The translations under genes and the position numbers were made by a program. DNA of 45,338 nt from a virus. Under the pieces are notes generated by a model. That model was not told the DNA's origin. It saw only the letters and a list, made by a program, of their open reading frames with translations, and made no database searches. The stretch lies in IMG/VR virus record IMGVR_UViG_3300036829_000136, positions 1 to 45,338 of that record; one strand, written 5' to 3'. Positions 25,060 through 43,259 of this stretch are shown here, one piece after another (the stretch's first letter is position 1; every line of letters starts with the position of its first letter).

Positions 25060-25388
25060 GCCAGAAGCCCAGCGTCGGCCGGATCGTCCACTACGTCAGC
25101 TACGGCACGCCCGGCGGTGAGTACACCCAGGAGTGCCGCGCCGCGATCGTCACCGAGGTTCCACCGGACGCCGACGGCCTGCAGACCCTCGGCCTGTGCG
25201 TGCTCAACCCGACCGGCCAGTTCTTCAACCGGGCCGTTCCGTTCGACGACGGCGGCGAGACGCCGGGCAAGCCCAACTGCCCGGACGCTGCGACCCACGG
25301 CACCCCCTTCCGCTACTGCGGATGCGGCTGGGCTGAGGCGCAGACCAAGGGCGGCACGTGGCACTGGCCAGAAAGGACCGAATCATGA
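25056..25388 (+). CDS. Conserved actinophage hypothetical protein of lysis cassette
   Basis: A 110-residue protein, ATG 25056 overlapping the previous stop. It has VGRIVHYVSYGTPGGEYTQE, CRAAIVTEV, GLCVLNPTGQFF and a C-terminal GGTWHWPER, a combination I recognise as common near lysin genes in Streptomyces and related phages. Several Cys/His residues (CPDAATHG, YCGCGW) may bind metal. No function is known for the group. Confidence 0.68.
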   Translation: MSQKPSVGRIVHYVSYGTPGGEYTQECRAAIVTEVPPDADGLQTLGLCVLNPTGQFFNRAVPFDDGGETPGKPNCPDAATHGTPFRYCGCGWAEAQTKGGTWHWPERTES

Positions 25389-26011
25389 CCGAGCCCGGTA
25401 TCGACGTCAGCTACGCGCAGGGCAAGTTCAACTGGACCGCCCAGCACGGCAAGGTCGCGTTCGGCGCGGCCAAGGCCACCGAGGGCCTCACCGTCACCGA
25501 CCCGCAGTTCAAGGCGAACTGGGACGGCATGTGGTTCCTGAACGGCACCCACACCGTGCCCCGGTTCGCGTACCACTTCTTCCACGCCAGCGACAATCCG
25601 GAGGACCAGGCCGCGCACCTCGTCTCCACGGTCAAGGCCCACGGGCTGCTGGCCGGTGACAATCTGCTGCTGGACCTCGAGGCCACCTCGAGCGACGGCC
25701 GCAACGACCACATCGCCCCGGCGACCGTCGCCGCTCGAGCGAAGGCCTGCCTCGAGGCGATCAACACGCTGGCCCCGAACCACCGCGTCTTGCTGTACAC
25801 CAACCCGGCGTTCGCCAAGGCGGGCAACTGCGCGGGCCTGGAGCCCTGGTTTCTCTGGCTGGCCTCGTACGGGGTCAGCAAGCCCGCTGTGCCCGCGCCG
25901 TGGAAGACGTGGACGTTCTGGCAGAACTCGGGGGCCACGCTCGACACCGACCGGTACAACGGCACCGAGGCGCAGCTGCTGGCCTTCACGAGGATGCCGA
26001 AGAGCCGGTAA
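25385..26011 (+). CDS. GH25 muramidase endolysin
   Basis: A 208-residue protein, ATG 25385, with GAAAGGA at 25370-25376. It hydrolyses the beta-1,4 bond between MurNAc and GlcNAc in peptidoglycan. GH25 marks: GIDVSYAQGKFNW (Asp7), FAYHFFHASDN, the catalytic LLDLEATS (Asp97, Glu99), HRVLLYTNP, WLASYGV and TWTFWQNSG, DTDRYNG. The protein is a bare catalytic domain with no cell-wall-binding repeats. No second lysin domain is seen in the window. Its last 26 nt overlap the convergent HIT gene. Confidence 0.92.
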   Translation: MTEPGIDVSYAQGKFNWTAQHGKVAFGAAKATEGLTVTDPQFKANWDGMWFLNGTHTVPRFAYHFFHASDNPEDQAAHLVSTVKAHGLLAGDNLLLDLEATSSDGRNDHIAPATVAARAKACLEAINTLAPNHRVLLYTNPAFAKAGNCAGLEPWFLWLASYGVSKPAVPAPWKTWTFWQNSGATLDTDRYNGTEAQLLAFTRMPKSR

Positions 26012-26357
26012 GAGGCTGCTGTCCGGTCCACGGGAGCGCCAGGCCGTCACCCTCGCGCCGGGGCACGATGTGGATGTGCAGGTGCCGCACGGTCTGCGTC
26101 GCCGCCCGGCCGGCCGAGGTGATCAGGTTGTAGGCAGGCGTCTCCAGGTCGAGCGGCCCGGCGATGTCCGCCGCCAGCTCCATCGTCCGGCCAGCGGTAA
26201 GCGGGTCGTCGCCAGCGTCCGGGACGTGCTTGCGCGGCACCACCAGCAGGTGTCCGGGCGTCACGGGGTTCAGTGGCTCGAAGGCGACAGCGAAGCGGTC
26301 CGAGTAGTCGAACTCGCCCGCCGCGATGCGGACGCAGAACGGGCAGTCATCGTCCAT
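25986..26357 (-). CDS. HIT family nucleotide hydrolase
   Basis: A 123-residue protein on the minus strand, ATG at 26357, with GGGAGG about 11 nt upstream. It starts with a CPFC metal site, has NPVTPGHLLVVPRKHV, and the diagnostic triad HLHIHIVPR (H-x-H-x-H-x-x). HIT proteins hydrolyse or transfer nucleotides (e.g. AppppA or AMP-lysine type substrates). It converges on and overlaps the lysin gene by 26 nt and diverges from the FxSxx-like peptide gene. Phage HIT genes occur in other actinophages; the role during infection is unknown. Confidence 0.9.
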   Translation of the reverse strand: MDDDCPFCVRIAAGEFDYSDRFAVAFEPLNPVTPGHLLVVPRKHVPDAGDDPLTAGRTMELAADIAGPLDLETPAYNLITSAGRAATQTVRHLHIHIVPRREGDGLALPWTGQQPLTGSSASS

Positions 26358-26376
26358 CCCACAACCCTCCCACTGA

Positions 26377-26382
26377 AATAAT
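26377..26382 (+). promoter_or_regulatory. Probable -10 box (AATAAT) of a leaderless transcript
   Basis: AATAAT lies 7 nt before ATG 26390, in very GC-rich surroundings. No ribosome site is present before that ATG, so transcription would start at or next to the start codon, giving a leaderless mRNA, which is common in actinobacteria. I see no good -35 box. Confidence 0.45.
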
Positions 26383-26389
26383 GATCACC

Positions 26390-26548
26390 ATGGCCACCGA
26401 CACCATCACCCAGCCCGCCGACCTCAGCGGCCTGAGCCTCACCCAGATAGCCGCACTCGACACCACGCACGAGGTGCTCGCCCGCATCCTGCCCGACGGG
26501 GCCATCCAGGTGCCGAAGCGGAAGCGCGGGTTCCAGTCGTCGATCTGA
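26390..26548 (+). CDS. FxSxx-COOH-like RiPP precursor peptide
   Basis: A 52-residue peptide from ATG 26390; ATG 26381 would add three residues. The leader-like part is DLSGLSLTQIAALDTTHEVL followed by ARILPDG, and the end is PKRKRGFQSSI. The free C-terminus F-Q-S-S-I matches the FxSxx-COOH pattern, and L-S-L-x-x-I-A-A-L-D resembles the leaders of that family. In known systems the partner radical-SAM enzyme FxsB cross-links the Phe/Ser core into a cyclophane. No CxxxCxxC radical-SAM gene is seen in the window, so the peptide is an orphan. It is flanked by a terminator hairpin. The call rests on the short motif and could be coincidence. Confidence 0.55.
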   Translation: MATDTITQPADLSGLSLTQIAALDTTHEVLARILPDGAIQVPKRKRGFQSSI

Positions 26549-26557
26549 GCACCAGCC

Positions 26558-26592
26558 GGGCACCCGGCCTGTTAGCAGCGGGCCGGGCGCCC
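26558..26592. terminator. Bidirectional terminator hairpin
   Basis: GGGCACCCGGCC at 26558-26569 pairs with GGGCCGGGCGCCC at 26580-26592 (one A-C mismatch), loop TGTTAGCAGC. It lies between the converging peptide gene (stop 26548) and minus-strand operon (stop 26608), so it can end both transcripts. There is no U tract, as is usual in high-GC actinobacteria. Confidence 0.7.
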
Positions 26593-26607
26593 TACTGGAG
26601 GCTCAGG

Positions 26608-26781
26608 TCACTTCCGGAGTTCGCCGCCGTAGCGTGAGCCGCCTCCATAGGCGCGGCCAAACCTGGCCTCCCGTTGCTTGTTTTCCTTCCGGTTCCTGGC
26701 CGCCTGCCGCTCCCACTCGGCAACCTCCTCCTGCTGCTTGGCGATTCTCTCGCGGTCGCCCTTGCTGCTGAAAATGCCCAT
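26608..26781 (-). CDS. Small charged coiled-coil protein
   Basis: A 57-residue protein. It begins MGIFSSKGDRERIAKQQEEV and continues AEWERQAARNRKENKQREAR, a highly charged helix, then a Gly/Tyr end (GRAYGGGSRYGGELRK). It is the last of three tiny basic genes on this strand. The preceding gene ends 2 nt upstream of its start, so translation is coupled. Family unknown. Confidence 0.6.
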   Translation of the reverse strand: MGIFSSKGDRERIAKQQEEVAEWERQAARNRKENKQREARFGRAYGGGSRYGGELRK

Positions 26782-26783
26782 GG

Positions 26784-26936
26784 TTACTTCCCCTTCTTGG
26801 CGTTCTTCTCGTCCAGCAGGAAGTCGACGCGGCCCTTGTGGCCGTCACGGTTCTCCGCGTCCCGCTCTGCGGCCTGCCGGAACGCAGCCTTCTCCAGCTC
26901 CCGGCGGATCGCCTCGTTCTGATCCTTCTTGCCCAT
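26784..26936 (-). CDS. Small charged protein
   Basis: A 50-residue protein: MGKKDQNEAIRRELEKAAFR then QAAERDAENRDGHKGRVDF, ending LLDEKNAKKGK. It is a helix-rich charged protein, similar in style to the 57-residue neighbour (both start MG-[IK]). Its start codon is 5 nt after the stop of the next upstream gene. Function unknown. Confidence 0.6.
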   Translation of the reverse strand: MGKKDQNEAIRRELEKAAFRQAAERDAENRDGHKGRVDFLLDEKNAKKGK

Positions 26937-26941
26937 CGTCG

Positions 26942-27103
26942 TTACCGGCCCCTCCCGGTGTTCTGGTCACGTCGCCACTGGGCCCGGTTGACCACCTTGC
27001 CGTTCTTCCGTTCGGGCCCCCCGTAGGTGTCTCGCTGGGTGACTTTGACCCGCTTGTTCTGCCCGGTGCTCGTGTCGATGTGTCCCTTGACGAACCTGCT
27101 CAT
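26942..27103 (-). CDS. Small basic protein
   Basis: A 53-residue protein with AAAGGA about 8 nt before ATG 27103. It reads MSRFVKGHIDTSTGQNKRVK, then VTQRDTYGGPERKNGKVVNR and ends AQWRRDQNTGRGR. The composition (Arg, Lys, Asn, Gln) suggests nucleic acid binding. The family is unknown. It heads the last part of the minus-strand operon, after the hairpin at 27151-27179. Confidence 0.6.
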   Translation of the reverse strand: MSRFVKGHIDTSTGQNKRVKVTQRDTYGGPERKNGKVVNRAQWRRDQNTGRGR

Positions 27104-27295: not shown

Positions 27296-27574
27296 TCACC
27301 TCCCTCCGCGTCTCGTGAACGCCCGCCACGCGGCCGGGCTGAACGCCAGCACCGGCCCCGCCGGGTCCTTCGAATCCCGGACCGCGACCAGCGGCCCGGG
27401 CGCGACCTCGACGCAGTGACCGTTGGAAGCGCTGGCCGAGGACTTCCGCCAGCCCTTCCCAACCTCGACGCATTCGCCGTTGCCGAGACTCCCGCTAGCC
27501 GCCCGCAGGTCGGCCACCTCGATGCAGTTGCCGTTGGAGAAGCTGAAGCTGGACTTACGCCACATCGGTGTCAT
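27296..27574 (-). CDS. DUF397 protein with tandem repeat of the N-terminal motif
   Basis: A 92-residue protein from ATG 27574. DUF397 marks: WRKSSASASNGHCVEVA followed by VAVRDSKDPAGPVLAFSPAAW. The N-terminal 40 residues repeat the first half (WRKSSFSFSNGNCIEVADL, then GNGECVEVG), so the protein has one and a half domains. In actinomycetes DUF397 proteins are encoded beside XRE regulators and are thought to be part of small regulatory or toxin-antitoxin-like pairs. The nearest partner candidate here, the XRE-type repressor at 34783, is 7 kb away. ATGA overlap with the upstream gene (27571) shows cotranslation. Confidence 0.85.
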   Translation of the reverse strand: MTPMWRKSSFSFSNGNCIEVADLRAASGSLGNGECVEVGKGWRKSSASASNGHCVEVAPGPLVAVRDSKDPAGPVLAFSPAAWRAFTRRGGR

Positions 27575-27720
27575 TTCGGCCCCTTCGGCCCCTTCGGCTT
27601 CTCGCCGAGCCGCCGCAGCGTCCCCGAGTTCTTGGCCATGCCGCGCTCGGCCGACGACCCGTGCTGCGTCAGCTTCCGCTGCTCCCATGCCGAGCCACCC
27701 GACTTCTTCACCACGCCCAT
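27571..27720 (-). CDS. Small basic hypothetical protein
   Basis: A 49-residue protein, ATG 27720, with GAGAGGTGAG upstream. It reads MGVVKKSGGSAWEQRKLTQH, GSSAERGMAKNSGTLRRLGE, and ends KPKGPKGPK. It is Lys/Gly-rich and could bind nucleic acids. It overlaps the DUF397 start by 4 nt, and may be its functional partner. Family unknown. Confidence 0.6.
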   Translation of the reverse strand: MGVVKKSGGSAWEQRKLTQHGSSAERGMAKNSGTLRRLGEKPKGPKGPK

Positions 27721-27725
27721 CGCTC

Positions 27726-28103
27726 TCACCTCTCCTGGTTGATTGCGTGCTGCTCGGCCACGGCCCGGGCCACGTCGGCCGGGCTGTAGCCGTAGAAGTT
27801 GTTCGTGATCTGCGCCGGGGCCTGCACAGGCGGGACGGCCCGGCGCGGCTCCGGGGCGGGCAGCGCCTGCGGCTGATGCACCACCACCGCCAAGCCGCCA
27901 CGGCGGTGCTCCCGCCACAGCCACCAGACCCCGGCGGCCACCAGCAGGACCACGACCACCACCACGCCGATCACGATGGCGGTCAGCAGCTCGGCCGCAG
28001 CGGCGGCCGCACCGGAGCCGACGGCGATCACGCCAGCGGCCACACCGGCCAGCAGAAGCCAGCCCTTGCCGTCGCCGCCGGTCGTCTGCCAGGTGCCTCT
28101 CAT
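27726..28103 (-). CDS. Two-TM membrane protein
   Basis: A 125-residue protein, ATG 28103. Residues about 13-35 (GWLLLAGVAAGVIAVGSGAA) and 42-64 (LTAIVIGVVVVVVLLVAAGV) are TM helices, followed by a cytoplasmic WREHRRGG and a Pro-rich tail ending ITNNFYGYSPADVARAVAEQ. It resembles the small Spd-type membrane proteins beside tra genes of actinomycete mobile elements. It overlaps the next upstream gene by 4 nt. Confidence 0.62.
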   Translation of the reverse strand: MRGTWQTTGGDGKGWLLLAGVAAGVIAVGSGAAAAAAELLTAIVIGVVVVVVLLVAAGVWWLWREHRRGGLAVVVHQPQALPAPEPRRAVPPVQAPAQITNNFYGYSPADVARAVAEQHAINQER

Positions 28104-28517: not shown

Positions 28518-30605
28518 TCACACACCCCGCTCCGCGAGCACCCGGCGGAGCTCCTCCGGAGCCAGATGCAGCGTGCCGCTGTGGTTCACCGTGGCGACGC
28601 CCTCACGGTCCAGCGCCTTGTGCAGCTGGCCGGCCGTGAGCCTCTTGTACGGCGCCCAGGACGGCGCCAGCTCCCGCAGCAGGCCCACCAGATCGCGGAG
28701 CCGGGCACGGTCGCCGCCGAGCACCTCGGCCAGGTCGGCCAGCAGATCCCTGGTCTCCGCGGCCGGTTCGATCGCCGGGGCCTCGATCCGCGTGCCCGGG
28801 GCCACCATGGCCACCGCCCGCTCGATCACTTCCTTGGCCGCGTCGTAGCCGGTGTCGTCGTTGACCTCGACGAAATACCACTTCAGCAGCTCGAACTGGC
28901 CGTCGCTCACACCCGTGATCACGCTGGTGCCCCGGTCCCGGCCAGGCCGCAGCTCGGTCGCCCGGATCCCGGCGGCGAACGAGCCGTCGCCCAGGAAGCC
29001 ATCGTTGGACCGCCACGTCTTGACGTAGAAGCAGCAGTTCACGCTGACCAGCTCCACCAGCTTCGGCGGGATCGCCTCCTTCCGGCTGGACTGGGTGTCG
29101 AACGCCAGCACGATCCCCGTCTTCCGGGCCCGCTTCGCCGTCTTCGTCGCCAGGTCAGCGGCCAGCGCGCCATGCTCGGGATGCCCGAACAGCTCGTGGC
29201 ACTCGGAGAACAGGGCCAGCTTCGGCCGCAGGTCACGGTGGGCCTGCGCCAGCTGGCGGGTCAGCTTCTTCGCGCCCAGGTCAGCGAGCCGCTGTTCCCG
29301 GCGCGCCACCTCGGCGTACAGCTCGTGCAGCCGGGCCACCGCGGCGGCGATGGTGTCGTCCTCGACGCCCTTCTCATAGATGGCCAGGCGGGGCCGGTAG
29401 GCGTCGAAGTCGCCGTTGTTGGCGAACACGAACACGTCGATCTCAGCGAGCGGGTCCAGCGACCAGCCGAGCGCGTACACGCGCAGCGCGTTCGACTTGC
29501 CCTGGCCCATCTGGCCGCCGCACACCACGTTGTTGCTGACCCCGGGGATGGCGATCTGGTCGCCGCGCGGGGCCACCCCGCCGGGCACGCCCTCGAAGAC
29601 GTCGGCGGTGCCCTCGTGCAGCAGCGGGTACTCCGGCGCGGCTTTGCCCAGCACGCCCGGGTCGGCGATCCACACGCTCACCGACCCGGCCGGGCCGACA
29701 CCGGTGGCCTCGCCGTCGCCCGGCCAGACCTCCACTTCGGCGCGGTGCACGTTCCGGGCGAAGATGGGCCGCTGATCAGCGATCATGCCCGCCGTGACGC
29801 CCAGCGGGACGCTGAACACGGACGAGTAGCCGCGGCCGTCCCGGGTCGGGCTCAGGTACATCGTGGGCCGCCAGCCCTCTTTGAACGCCTTCTTCAGCTC
29901 CGGGATCCGGATGTTCTGCAAGGCCAGCACGATCGTGTCGGCCGTCACCACCAGGCCGGCGTCGTCGTCGGCCTTGCTGGCCACCATCCAGCCGGTGGTG
30001 GCCGTCCGGGCGTAGCCCCGGCCCAGCCACCACAGCATGACGATCGCGGCCCAGGGGATAGCCAGGACGATCGGGCCCCAGGCGATCGACACGACGATGG
30101 CGATGATCTCGACGACCTTGGCCGTGACCAGGAACGGTGTCTCGATCTGCTTGACGTTCCTGGTGGCGATGGCCAGCAGGACACCGATCGTGGCGAAGAC
30201 GCCGACGATGCCCATCGCGATCTTCGGCAGCTCTTTGAACACGGTGACCGGCAGGTTGACCAGGTCGGTGCGCCGCTGGTGACGGTCCTTCCGGAACCGG
30301 GCCAGCCGGTCCTCCCACTGGAGCACGGCCTCGTGATCCCCGGCTGCCTCGGCGGACCGCATGTACCGTTCCAGCCGGGCGGTCGACCGGGACTCCCACA
30401 GGCGTTTGACCACGGCGTATGCGCCGACGCCGACGTAGGCGACGTTCCGGCCCACCGCGCGGGTGTGCTCGTGGCGGACCGCCACCGCGGCGGCGTGGCT
30501 GACCCGGCGAACGGGCGTCAGTGTCAGCTCGTCCTCGTCGACCACCTCCCCTTCGATGACGTCGGGGTCCTGGTCGGGGAACGGGACGATCTCGGCGTCT
30601 GCCAT
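28518..30605 (-). CDS. FtsK/TraB-like DNA translocase
   Basis: A 695-residue protein from ATG 30605, with GGAGGTGTG about 6 nt upstream. The N-terminus is acidic and soluble, then TM segments at about 129-148 (IAMGIVGVFATIGVLLAIAT) and 163-197. Walker A is GGQMGQGKS (363-371); the Walker B-like strand is LALFSE (463-468), with Glu where Asp-Glu is usual; DTQSSRKEAIP follows. The last 100 residues (LADLAEVLGG ... LTAGQLHKALDREGV ... LHLAPEELRRVL) form a helical/winged-helix end that could read DNA. This is the form of the hexameric pumps that move double-stranded DNA between Streptomyces cells, not the terminase. It overlaps the upstream gene. Confidence 0.85.
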   Translation of the reverse strand: MADAEIVPFPDQDPDVIEGEVVDEDELTLTPVRRVSHAAAVAVRHEHTRAVGRNVAYVGVGAYAVVKRLWESRSTARLERYMRSAEAAGDHEAVLQWEDRLARFRKDRHQRRTDLVNLPVTVFKELPKIAMGIVGVFATIGVLLAIATRNVKQIETPFLVTAKVVEIIAIVVSIAWGPIVLAIPWAAIVMLWWLGRGYARTATTGWMVASKADDDAGLVVTADTIVLALQNIRIPELKKAFKEGWRPTMYLSPTRDGRGYSSVFSVPLGVTAGMIADQRPIFARNVHRAEVEVWPGDGEATGVGPAGSVSVWIADPGVLGKAAPEYPLLHEGTADVFEGVPGGVAPRGDQIAIPGVSNNVVCGGQMGQGKSNALRVYALGWSLDPLAEIDVFVFANNGDFDAYRPRLAIYEKGVEDDTIAAAVARLHELYAEVARREQRLADLGAKKLTRQLAQAHRDLRPKLALFSECHELFGHPEHGALAADLATKTAKRARKTGIVLAFDTQSSRKEAIPPKLVELVSVNCCFYVKTWRSNDGFLGDGSFAAGIRATELRPGRDRGTSVITGVSDGQFELLKWYFVEVNDDTGYDAAKEVIERAVAMVAPGTRIEAPAIEPAAETRDLLADLAEVLGGDRARLRDLVGLLRELAPSWAPYKRLTAGQLHKALDREGVATVNHSGTLHLAPEELRRVLAERGV

Positions 30606-30817
30606 CAGGCACACCTCCAGTTGGTGCCACAGCGGGGATAGGGCGAACTGGGATACCGGGCCACGGTCCGCAGCGCGGGCCGGACCGCCGCCACGGCGAC
30701 GGCCAGGAGCACGATCACGACGAGCGCGGGGACGTGGACGGTGGCGCCGGCCACGTGCGCCCGGGACGGGACCAGGGCGGCCAGGGTGAACGCGAGCGCG
30801 AGCAGCTTCAGCGTCAT
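30605..30817 (-). CDS. Small membrane protein of transfer module
   Basis: A 70-residue protein, ATG 30817, whose stop overlaps the translocase start. Two hydrophobic stretches (LLALAFTLAALVPSRAHVAG and PALVVIVLLAVAVAAVRPAL) and a C-terminal RYPSSPYPRCGTNWRCA with two Cys. It is likely translated together with the translocase and could be an Spd-type spread protein. Family not certain. Confidence 0.6.
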   Translation of the reverse strand: MTLKLLALAFTLAALVPSRAHVAGATVHVPALVVIVLLAVAVAAVRPALRTVARYPSSPYPRCGTNWRCA

Positions 30818-31542
30818 GACGCACCGTCCGTACCTGGCACGAGGGACTTCAGGTACGCCTGTACCTGGGGGGCCGTGTCGCTGCCGATCCGCAGCCGCTC
30901 GCGGATCTGGCGGATCGTCGGCGTCCGGCCGGCCACGACGTCGGCGGCGAACTCTGCGCCCGCCCGCTTGTGCAGCTCGGGCAGATTGTCACTGGCGTCA
31001 CTGCCGCTGGTCAGCCACGCCAGCAGGTCGGTCAGGTCGGCGTCGGCCGCCGGGGGGACCGGGTCCGGCGCTGGCGGCTCGGTGACAGCCGGGGCCGGGC
31101 CGGGCTCGATGTCACTGGCCCCGGGCACAGCCCGCAGCAGATGCGTGAGCGCCGCCCCGAATCCGAGGGTCACGACGGGCAGGCAGGCGACCAGCACGAC
31201 CACCGGCCACGGGGCCCGGGTACGGTGCGCGGCGGCGAGCACGTGGTAGGCGATCTGGCCGAGCATCCCCAGGCACAGCGCGCCGACCGCTGACCGGCGG
31301 GCGAAGGTCCGGGCCGGGCCCGGGGTGCCGCCGTGGAGCCAGGCGCCGAGCGCGAACGCCCCGTACGCCTCGACGCCGACCGGGAGCGTGATCGCGGTGT
31401 TGAGGTGCCAGGCGACGATGCCGGGCAGCGGCTGGACGAGGCCGAAGCCGCACAGCTCGCCCAGGCCCACCCAGCCGGACCAGATGGCCACGGCCGCGGG
31501 GGAGGCGATGAACAGGAGGGGCCAGCGGCGGGGGGCGGTCAC
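30814..31542 (-). CDS. Spd-like (DUF2637-type) membrane protein
   Basis: A 242-residue protein, ATG 31542. Four hydrophobic helices (LLFIASPAAVAIWSGWVGLG, LNTAITLPVGVEAYGAFALG, GALCLGMLGQIAYHVLAAAH, PVVVLVACLPVVTLGFGAAL) are followed by a Pro/Ala linker and a C-terminal helical domain (TPTIRQIRERLRIGSDTAPQ). The order 'WSGWVGLGE ... LPGI ... NTAITLPVGVEAYGAFALGAWL' is characteristic of proteins beside tra genes in Streptomyces integrative elements. Such proteins help plasmid spread inside mycelium. Overlaps both neighbours by 4 nt. Confidence 0.75.
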   Translation of the reverse strand: MTAPRRWPLLFIASPAAVAIWSGWVGLGELCGFGLVQPLPGIVAWHLNTAITLPVGVEAYGAFALGAWLHGGTPGPARTFARRSAVGALCLGMLGQIAYHVLAAAHRTRAPWPVVVLVACLPVVTLGFGAALTHLLRAVPGASDIEPGPAPAVTEPPAPDPVPPAADADLTDLLAWLTSGSDASDNLPELHKRAGAEFAADVVAGRTPTIRQIRERLRIGSDTAPQVQAYLKSLVPGTDGAS

Positions 31543-42713: not shown

Positions 42714-43259
42714 ATGCGCAAGACCCTCACCACCATCGCCACCGCAGCGGCCGCCATCGCGGCCAGCGCAGGCTTCGCCACGGCCGCCCAGGCGACCACC
42801 CCCGCCGCAACCAGCGGCGTCCTCGGCGCCTACGCAGGCGACCAGGTGGACGGCAACCAGCTCGCCTTCGACGTCTACCAGCAGGCCCCCAAGGTCAGCC
42901 AGCCCGTCATCGCCTACCGCGACTCCACCACCGACCAGGCCACCGACTGGGCCGCCTACGTGCCCGCCGGGGACTTCGCCACCGGCTCCAAGCAGTTCAT
43001 GTACACGCCGTCCGGCAAGCTCACCGGCCTGTGCCTGTCCGACCCCGACGCCGTCTACGCCGGGCACGCCAACGCGGACGCGCTCGTGCTGCGGACCTGC
43101 CTCGGTGACGACGCCTGGCAGGTGTGGGCCTACAACGGGGCCGGCTGGACCAACGCCAAGACCGGGCTGGTCATCACCGAGAACGGGAACGCGAAGCAGC
43201 TCACCGACGCTGCGGCCGTGGACGGCAGCGCGGGGCAGACCTGGACGTTCAGCAGCTAG
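42714..43259 (+). CDS. Secreted protein with beta-trefoil-like (ricin-B-like) C-terminus
   Basis: A 181-residue protein, ATG 42714, with GAGGAG at 42699-42704. Signal peptide: basic RKT, hydrophobic Ala-rich core, cleavage likely after AAQA (residue 27). Mature part: AYAGDQVDGNQLAFDVYQQA, YTPSGKLTGLCLSDP, VLRTCLGDDAWQVWAYNGAG, WTNAKTGLVITENG, GSAGQTWTFSS. The QVW and QTW turns match ricin-B-like beta-trefoil lectins. It is flanked by two terminators, so it is a single-gene unit. It may bind surface sugar and change the lysogen. No enzyme motif is seen. Confidence 0.75.
   Translation: MRKTLTTIATAAAAIAASAGFATAAQATTPAATSGVLGAYAGDQVDGNQLAFDVYQQAPKVSQPVIAYRDSTTDQATDWAAYVPAGDFATGSKQFMYTPSGKLTGLCLSDPDAVYAGHANADALVLRTCLGDDAWQVWAYNGAGWTNAKTGLVITENGNAKQLTDAAAVDGSAGQTWTFSS

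Follow-up and report, generated by a model that had tools for sequence, protein, structure and literature searches.

A phage-borne cassette encoding a candidate FxSxx-COOH-like peptide precursor, common to two otherwise mostly different viruses

FxSxx peptides of actinobacteria occur alongside genes for a radical-SAM/SPASM protein and a metallopeptidase; once processed, they have been proposed to serve as toxins or signals within VMAP-type conflict systems that have TIR/AP-ATPase effectors (PMC7159879). MscB, a related three-residue cyclophane enzyme, links Phe and Ser, and such cross-links form between residues i and i+2 (PMC11002830). RiPPs are already known from phage-host interplay (PMC11118758), as are anti-phage lanthipeptides of Streptomyces and the arbitrium peptides of phages (PMC12360287). 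The membership of FxSxx peptides in conflict systems is a prediction for actinobacteria and their biological role is not established; in the open-access literature we found no description of an orphan FxSxx precursor carried by a phage.

The stretch of DNA analyzed here (hereafter, the window) is a viral record of 45,338 bp with a G+C content of 67–73%, which encodes a portal, a protease, a tape-measure protein, a GH25 endolysin, and a tyrosine integrase. Judged by its sequence, the virus is temperate and its hosts are high-GC, actinomycete-type bacteria. It carries a short peptide gene for which IMG/VR holds a single relative, in the 49.6-kb virus IMGVR_UViG_3300048997_000080 (hereafter, G001; loci L002, L003, and L021). 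The features of the locus in the window are:

25358..26011, plus strand: GH25 endolysin gene, 5' of the cassette (PF01183, 81.5 bits); its final 50 bp also occur near the G001 cassette
25986..26357, minus strand: HIT-family gene (PF01230, 58.8 bits), a divergent neighbor outside the shared unit, missing from that position in G001
26373..26606, plus strand: cassette common to G001 (box, ORF, and stem; ~230 bp); blastn identity 74% over 241 columns, E 1.6e-33
26374..26382, plus strand: TGAAATAAT, extended −10-like box and putative leaderless promoter, 7 nt before the ATG at 26390
26390..26548, plus strand: ORF of the candidate FxSxx-like precursor, 52 aa, read directly from ATG 26390 to TGA 26546–26548
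26417..26494, plus strand: leader part aligned to TIGR04268 positions 1–24 (ADLSGLSLTQIAALDTTHEVLARILP region), near-invariant in G001
26516..26527, plus strand: KRKR, variable linker, absent from G001
26531..26545, plus strand: C-terminal F-Q-S-S-I by direct reading, predicted core; FSSSI in G001
26542..26609, no strand assigned: long GC-rich stem-loop, probable bidirectional terminator, overlapping and following the stop of the ORF

The original prediction described a 52-residue peptide that ends in FQSSI-COOH and has a leader of the L-S-L-x-x-I-A-A-L-D type, and the ORF at 26390–26548 confirms it: the translation is MATDTITQPADLSGLSLTQIAALDTTHEVLARILPDGAIQVPKRKRGFQSSI, with DLSGLSLTQIAALD as the leader. 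An alternative in-frame ATG at 26381 would give 55 residues. We rejected a 91-residue extension from a GTG (26273–26548) because it overlaps the HIT-family gene and because upstream homology to G001 ends at the box. The HIT-family protein itself weakly matches the PADLOC model for the Thoeris protein ThsC (HIT; 19.7 bits), and many actinobacterial phages have annotated HIT genes.

Searched against NCBIfam, the peptide had one match, to the FxSxx-COOH model TIGR04268 (17.7 bits, E 0.003), which covered positions 1–24 of 44 and thus the leader part. A six-frame search of the window phage returned the precursor as the only match to this model (14.7 bits, E 0.002). The G001 peptide scored 16.3 bits over positions 2–44, up to the final position of the model. 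Both peptide scores lie below the curated cut-off of 28 bits; therefore formal membership in TIGR04268 fails and we do not claim it. The match sought by the original prediction is present in the leader, but at sub-threshold strength. As in the family, both peptides place this leader N-terminal to a C-terminal F-x-S-x-x-COOH, FQSSI in the window and FSSSI in G001, with TGA directly after each. When KRKR was omitted from the window peptide, its score rose to 24.2 bits and the alignment extended over positions 1–44; with its tail replaced, the window peptide scored 16.4 bits, and the same replacement in the G001 peptide abolished the match. The G001 tail also weakly matched the SjiA model NF040585 (14.8 bits).

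As a background control, six large actinomycete plasmids (11.1 Mb) were searched with TIGR04268 and for FxsB (TIGR04269). They yielded background matches alone and no authentic fxsA/fxsB: 14 TIGR04268 matches reached at least 14.7 bits (best 17.2), all in frames of at least 135 aa, which corresponds to ~0.06 matches of that strength expected per 45 kb. Since comparable scores arise as background in megabases of actinomycete DNA, the score by itself is no proof, and we treat that of the window peptide as suggestive. On the Kitasatospora plasmid NZ_CP109408.1, radical-SAM matches to TIGR04269 at 423490, 755558, and 1293633 share one score (36.7 bits) and one frame length (383 aa) and seem to stem from a single repeated gene. 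TIGR04268 matched neither the one unrelated window peptide that we tried nor any of three peptides, scrambled or arbitrary, with a similar composition. Besides the NCBIfam model, our family comparison used FxsA consensus probes that were composed from general knowledge (57–66 bits with TIGR04268) and are not authentic FxsA sequences; these had no match in the phages and only weak matches, with E of at least 1, in the plasmids. Among 2,100 ORFs of 30–120 aa from related viral and a few other loci, one ends in F-x-S-x-x and one contains the leader motif L-x-x-[LI]-x-[AS]-L-D, both motifs having been picked after inspection of the peptide. Leader and tail at the correct spacing occurred only in the window gene and its G001 homologue within the 668 kb of DNA examined.

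The same observations bear on whether the gene encodes a RiPP precursor at all. The product could instead have nothing to do with RiPPs: a small phage protein that works without modification and might, for instance, bind a host protein by way of its LSLTQIAALDTTHEVLARIL part, with the F-x-S-x-x tail a coincidence within a conserved C-terminus. Such a protein would fit a TIGR04268 score that is below the cut-off and within the background of large searches, and would also fit a conservation that is strongest in the leader-like part, whereas the family-like spacing of leader and tail, the alignment of G001 to the last position of the model, and the rarity of the combination point to a precursor. 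We regard the unmodified protein as a genuine minority possibility and consider the peptide somewhat probable to be an FxSxx-like precursor, so that the original designation holds as a resemblance in leader and tail but not as family membership.

The gene is flanked by two candidate transcription signals. AATAAT (26377–26382), with TG before it, occurs just once in the window, both strands considered; no Shine-Dalgarno sequence was found for the ATG at 26390, in agreement with the original prediction, and a promoter scan found no sigma-70 −35/−10 pair at the gene. TANNNT is the consensus for actinobacterial leaderless genes (PMC3160421). Compared with such genes, in which TANNNT lies ~12 bp upstream of a start without a Shine-Dalgarno sequence, the distance of AATAAT fits and the extended TG is present, but the first T is missing; because the box reads AANNNT, it represents a plausible yet imperfect leaderless promoter. 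The box is identical in G001, and the sequence farther upstream diverges. Leaderless transcription, which had been put forward as a possibility, is no more than hinted at by a −10 box that is conserved yet departs from the consensus. At the other end of the gene, the predicted fold of the stem-loop has −54.2 kcal/mol (z −7.3), and that of the opposite strand −49.8 kcal/mol (z −6.1). The proposed bidirectional terminator thus has a strong stem on both strands but no T-run, which explains why a simple terminator scan misses it.

The stem fold is retained in G001 despite a differing inner sequence, as would be expected if the unit were chiefly a structured RNA in which the ORF is incidental. Rfam, however, held no family match for the cassette, and 9 of the 14 changes between window and G001 fall at third codon positions, with the frame maintained through the tail. 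Over 27 aligned codons, changes in 8 of the 11 changed codons were synonymous (dN 0.10, dS 0.54; dN/dS ~0.18). This substitution pattern indicates that the frame is coding, and the codon changes point to purifying selection on the peptide gene. We consequently hold a primarily RNA-based function to be very improbable and are largely confident that the cassette is coding and selected.

The peptide region of G001 reads LDLHGLTLEQIAALDTTHEVLARILPDGTVPVPVASFSSSI-stop. Its linker differs from that of the window in both length and sequence (VAS versus KRKRG), and F-x-S-S-I-stop and the leader are kept across it. The original prediction was to be given up if there were no HMM match and the last five residues varied among related phages; we found a sub-threshold match, and the single relative retains both tail and leader. 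Four bases (CCCC) that the window lacks follow the start in G001; its ATG frame therefore does not enter the conserved frame, in which no upstream ATG, GTG, or TTG was found. The disruption represents either fresh decay of this copy or an indel error in the metagenome assembly. Fresh decay would suit a scenario in which a captured host fxsA gene is now decaying and functionless in the phage, a scenario also in keeping with the absence of partner genes described below and with divergence from TIGR04268. Against it stand the intact frame in the window, the low dN/dS over 27 codons, and a promoter box and stem that are retained in both phages and moved with the gene as a unit. We consider such decay improbable.

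G001 is a different siphophage, whose head and terminase genes are not related to those of the window (major head phrog_10 and terminase phrog_9, versus portal phrog_2662 and phrog_13692 in the window), and DNA similarity between the two is confined to a 1-kb tail-gene stretch, two short pieces near 25.1–25.2 kb, the lysin end, and 26373–26606. In this last segment homology begins at the AT-rich box, runs through the ORF, and stops at the end of the stem, with unrelated flanks on either side. The final 50 bp of the GH25 lysin gene (window 25963–26012) occur alone in G001 (L003:9104–9153, 92% identical, QLLAFTRMPKSR-stop), ~0.8 kb before the cassette, and the rest of the lysin gene is missing. 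This lone lysin end is likely a transfer scar and suggests that the cassette arrived from a phage with the lysin-cassette order of the window. A moron is a self-contained unit common to otherwise different phages, and the cassette, bordered by box and stem, has this anatomy of promoter (here putative), gene, and terminator. The proposal of an independent unit beside the lysis genes is borne out by these borders.

Several neighboring genes were noted in the window. Between the cassette and a DUF397 gene lie three successive small ORFs on the minus strand (26608–27103; 50–57 aa), highly charged and with no function assigned. The DUF397 gene (27296–27901, minus strand) encodes a phage protein with two DUF397 stretches; in actinomycetes, DUF397 genes usually lie alongside a helix-turn-helix regulator gene, a pairing of which we saw one instance in this analysis. 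An FtsK-like translocase (28518–30824, minus strand) has relatives in seven other viral contigs (55–65% identity), plus remoter ones on plasmids of Streptomyces and Pseudonocardia, and by its sequence appears to be a plasmid/ICE-type module inside the phage. The protein encoded at 42714–43259 (plus strand) weakly matches a ricin-B-type lectin domain (PF00652, 22.1 bits, below the cut-off of 29).

The absence of an FxsB gene from the window, which the original prediction had claimed, was upheld by searches with TIGR04269 and with the radical-SAM domain PF04055. Neither was found in the window or G001 records, which are possibly incomplete, and the same records lack the HExxH modification protein (TIGR04267) and FxsC (TIGR04276). 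The lack of a maturase in either record is also what an unmodified, non-RiPP protein would predict. No match to the peptide was obtained by tblastn against phage and plasmid collections or by scanning genome contigs, and a scan of those contigs with one window structural protein was likewise empty; PADLOC gave no match for the peptide, and solved structures included no significant relative. Alignment and pattern scans of IMG/VR viral contigs revealed no copy beyond G001: one contig that matched the tail pattern (L056) and 14 others that matched the box pattern contain no such peptide.

The same gene unit, without its finishing enzyme, in an otherwise mostly different virus suggests reliance on, or interference with, the host's own enzyme, and a peptide that is matured by or blocks that enzyme is the economical reading. 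We tentatively propose that the cassette is a moron encoding a divergent FxSxx-COOH-type precursor on which a host FxsB-type maturase acts, as substrate or decoy; action via host FxsB is, taken separately, equally tentative. The unit would be transcribed by itself, probably in the lysogen (or in early infection), and the actinomycete host would provide an FxsB-type radical-SAM/SPASM enzyme that recognizes the L-x-L-x-x-I-A-A-L-D leader. Within the F-Q-S core, this enzyme would link the presumed cross-link pair, Phe48 and Ser50, to form a three-residue cyclophane, and the phage version of the peptide would be fed into the host FxSxx conflict pathway, where it might compete with the host peptide as a decoy or yield a product acting against other phages. 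A trigger of host immunity, the third role offered by the original prediction, would look the same in sequence as a decoy or a supplied substrate. The conserved core argues for modification of the peptide itself over a leader-only decoy. Whether there is a class of phage genes whose contribution is limited to the precursor of a cross-linked host peptide (FxSxx) and which use an immune-linked host maturase in trans, as substrate mimics that disarm the host conflict system or redirect it at rival phages, seems doubtful to us at present. A lone phage peptide that is under selection and moves between phages as a unit would tie the FxSxx pathway to phage-host conflict and offer a simple experimental handle on that pathway.

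Among described systems, the peptide resembles FxsA (TIGR04268) in its similar length, its L-x-L-x-x-I-A-A-L-D leader, and a C-terminal F-x-S-x-x at similar spacing, but differs in scoring below the cut-off, in its KRKR linker, and in being phage-borne without FxsB, HExxH protein, or FxsC nearby. The FXSXX precursors of the SjiA family (NF040585) are matched by the G001 tail at profile positions 37–59, but far below that model's cut-off of 75 bits, and the window peptide is unmatched. Like arbitrium AimP, the product would be a short peptide precursor made by a phage, whereas AimP undergoes secretion and processing and is then sensed by AimR, a phage receptor encoded in the same operon (PMC12360287), and we identified neither a receptor gene nor a secretion signal here. 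The cassette shares with phage morons its autonomy, sharp homology borders, position adjoining lysis genes, and occurrence in different phages; unlike theirs, its product looks like the precursor of a host RiPP and not like a finished effector.
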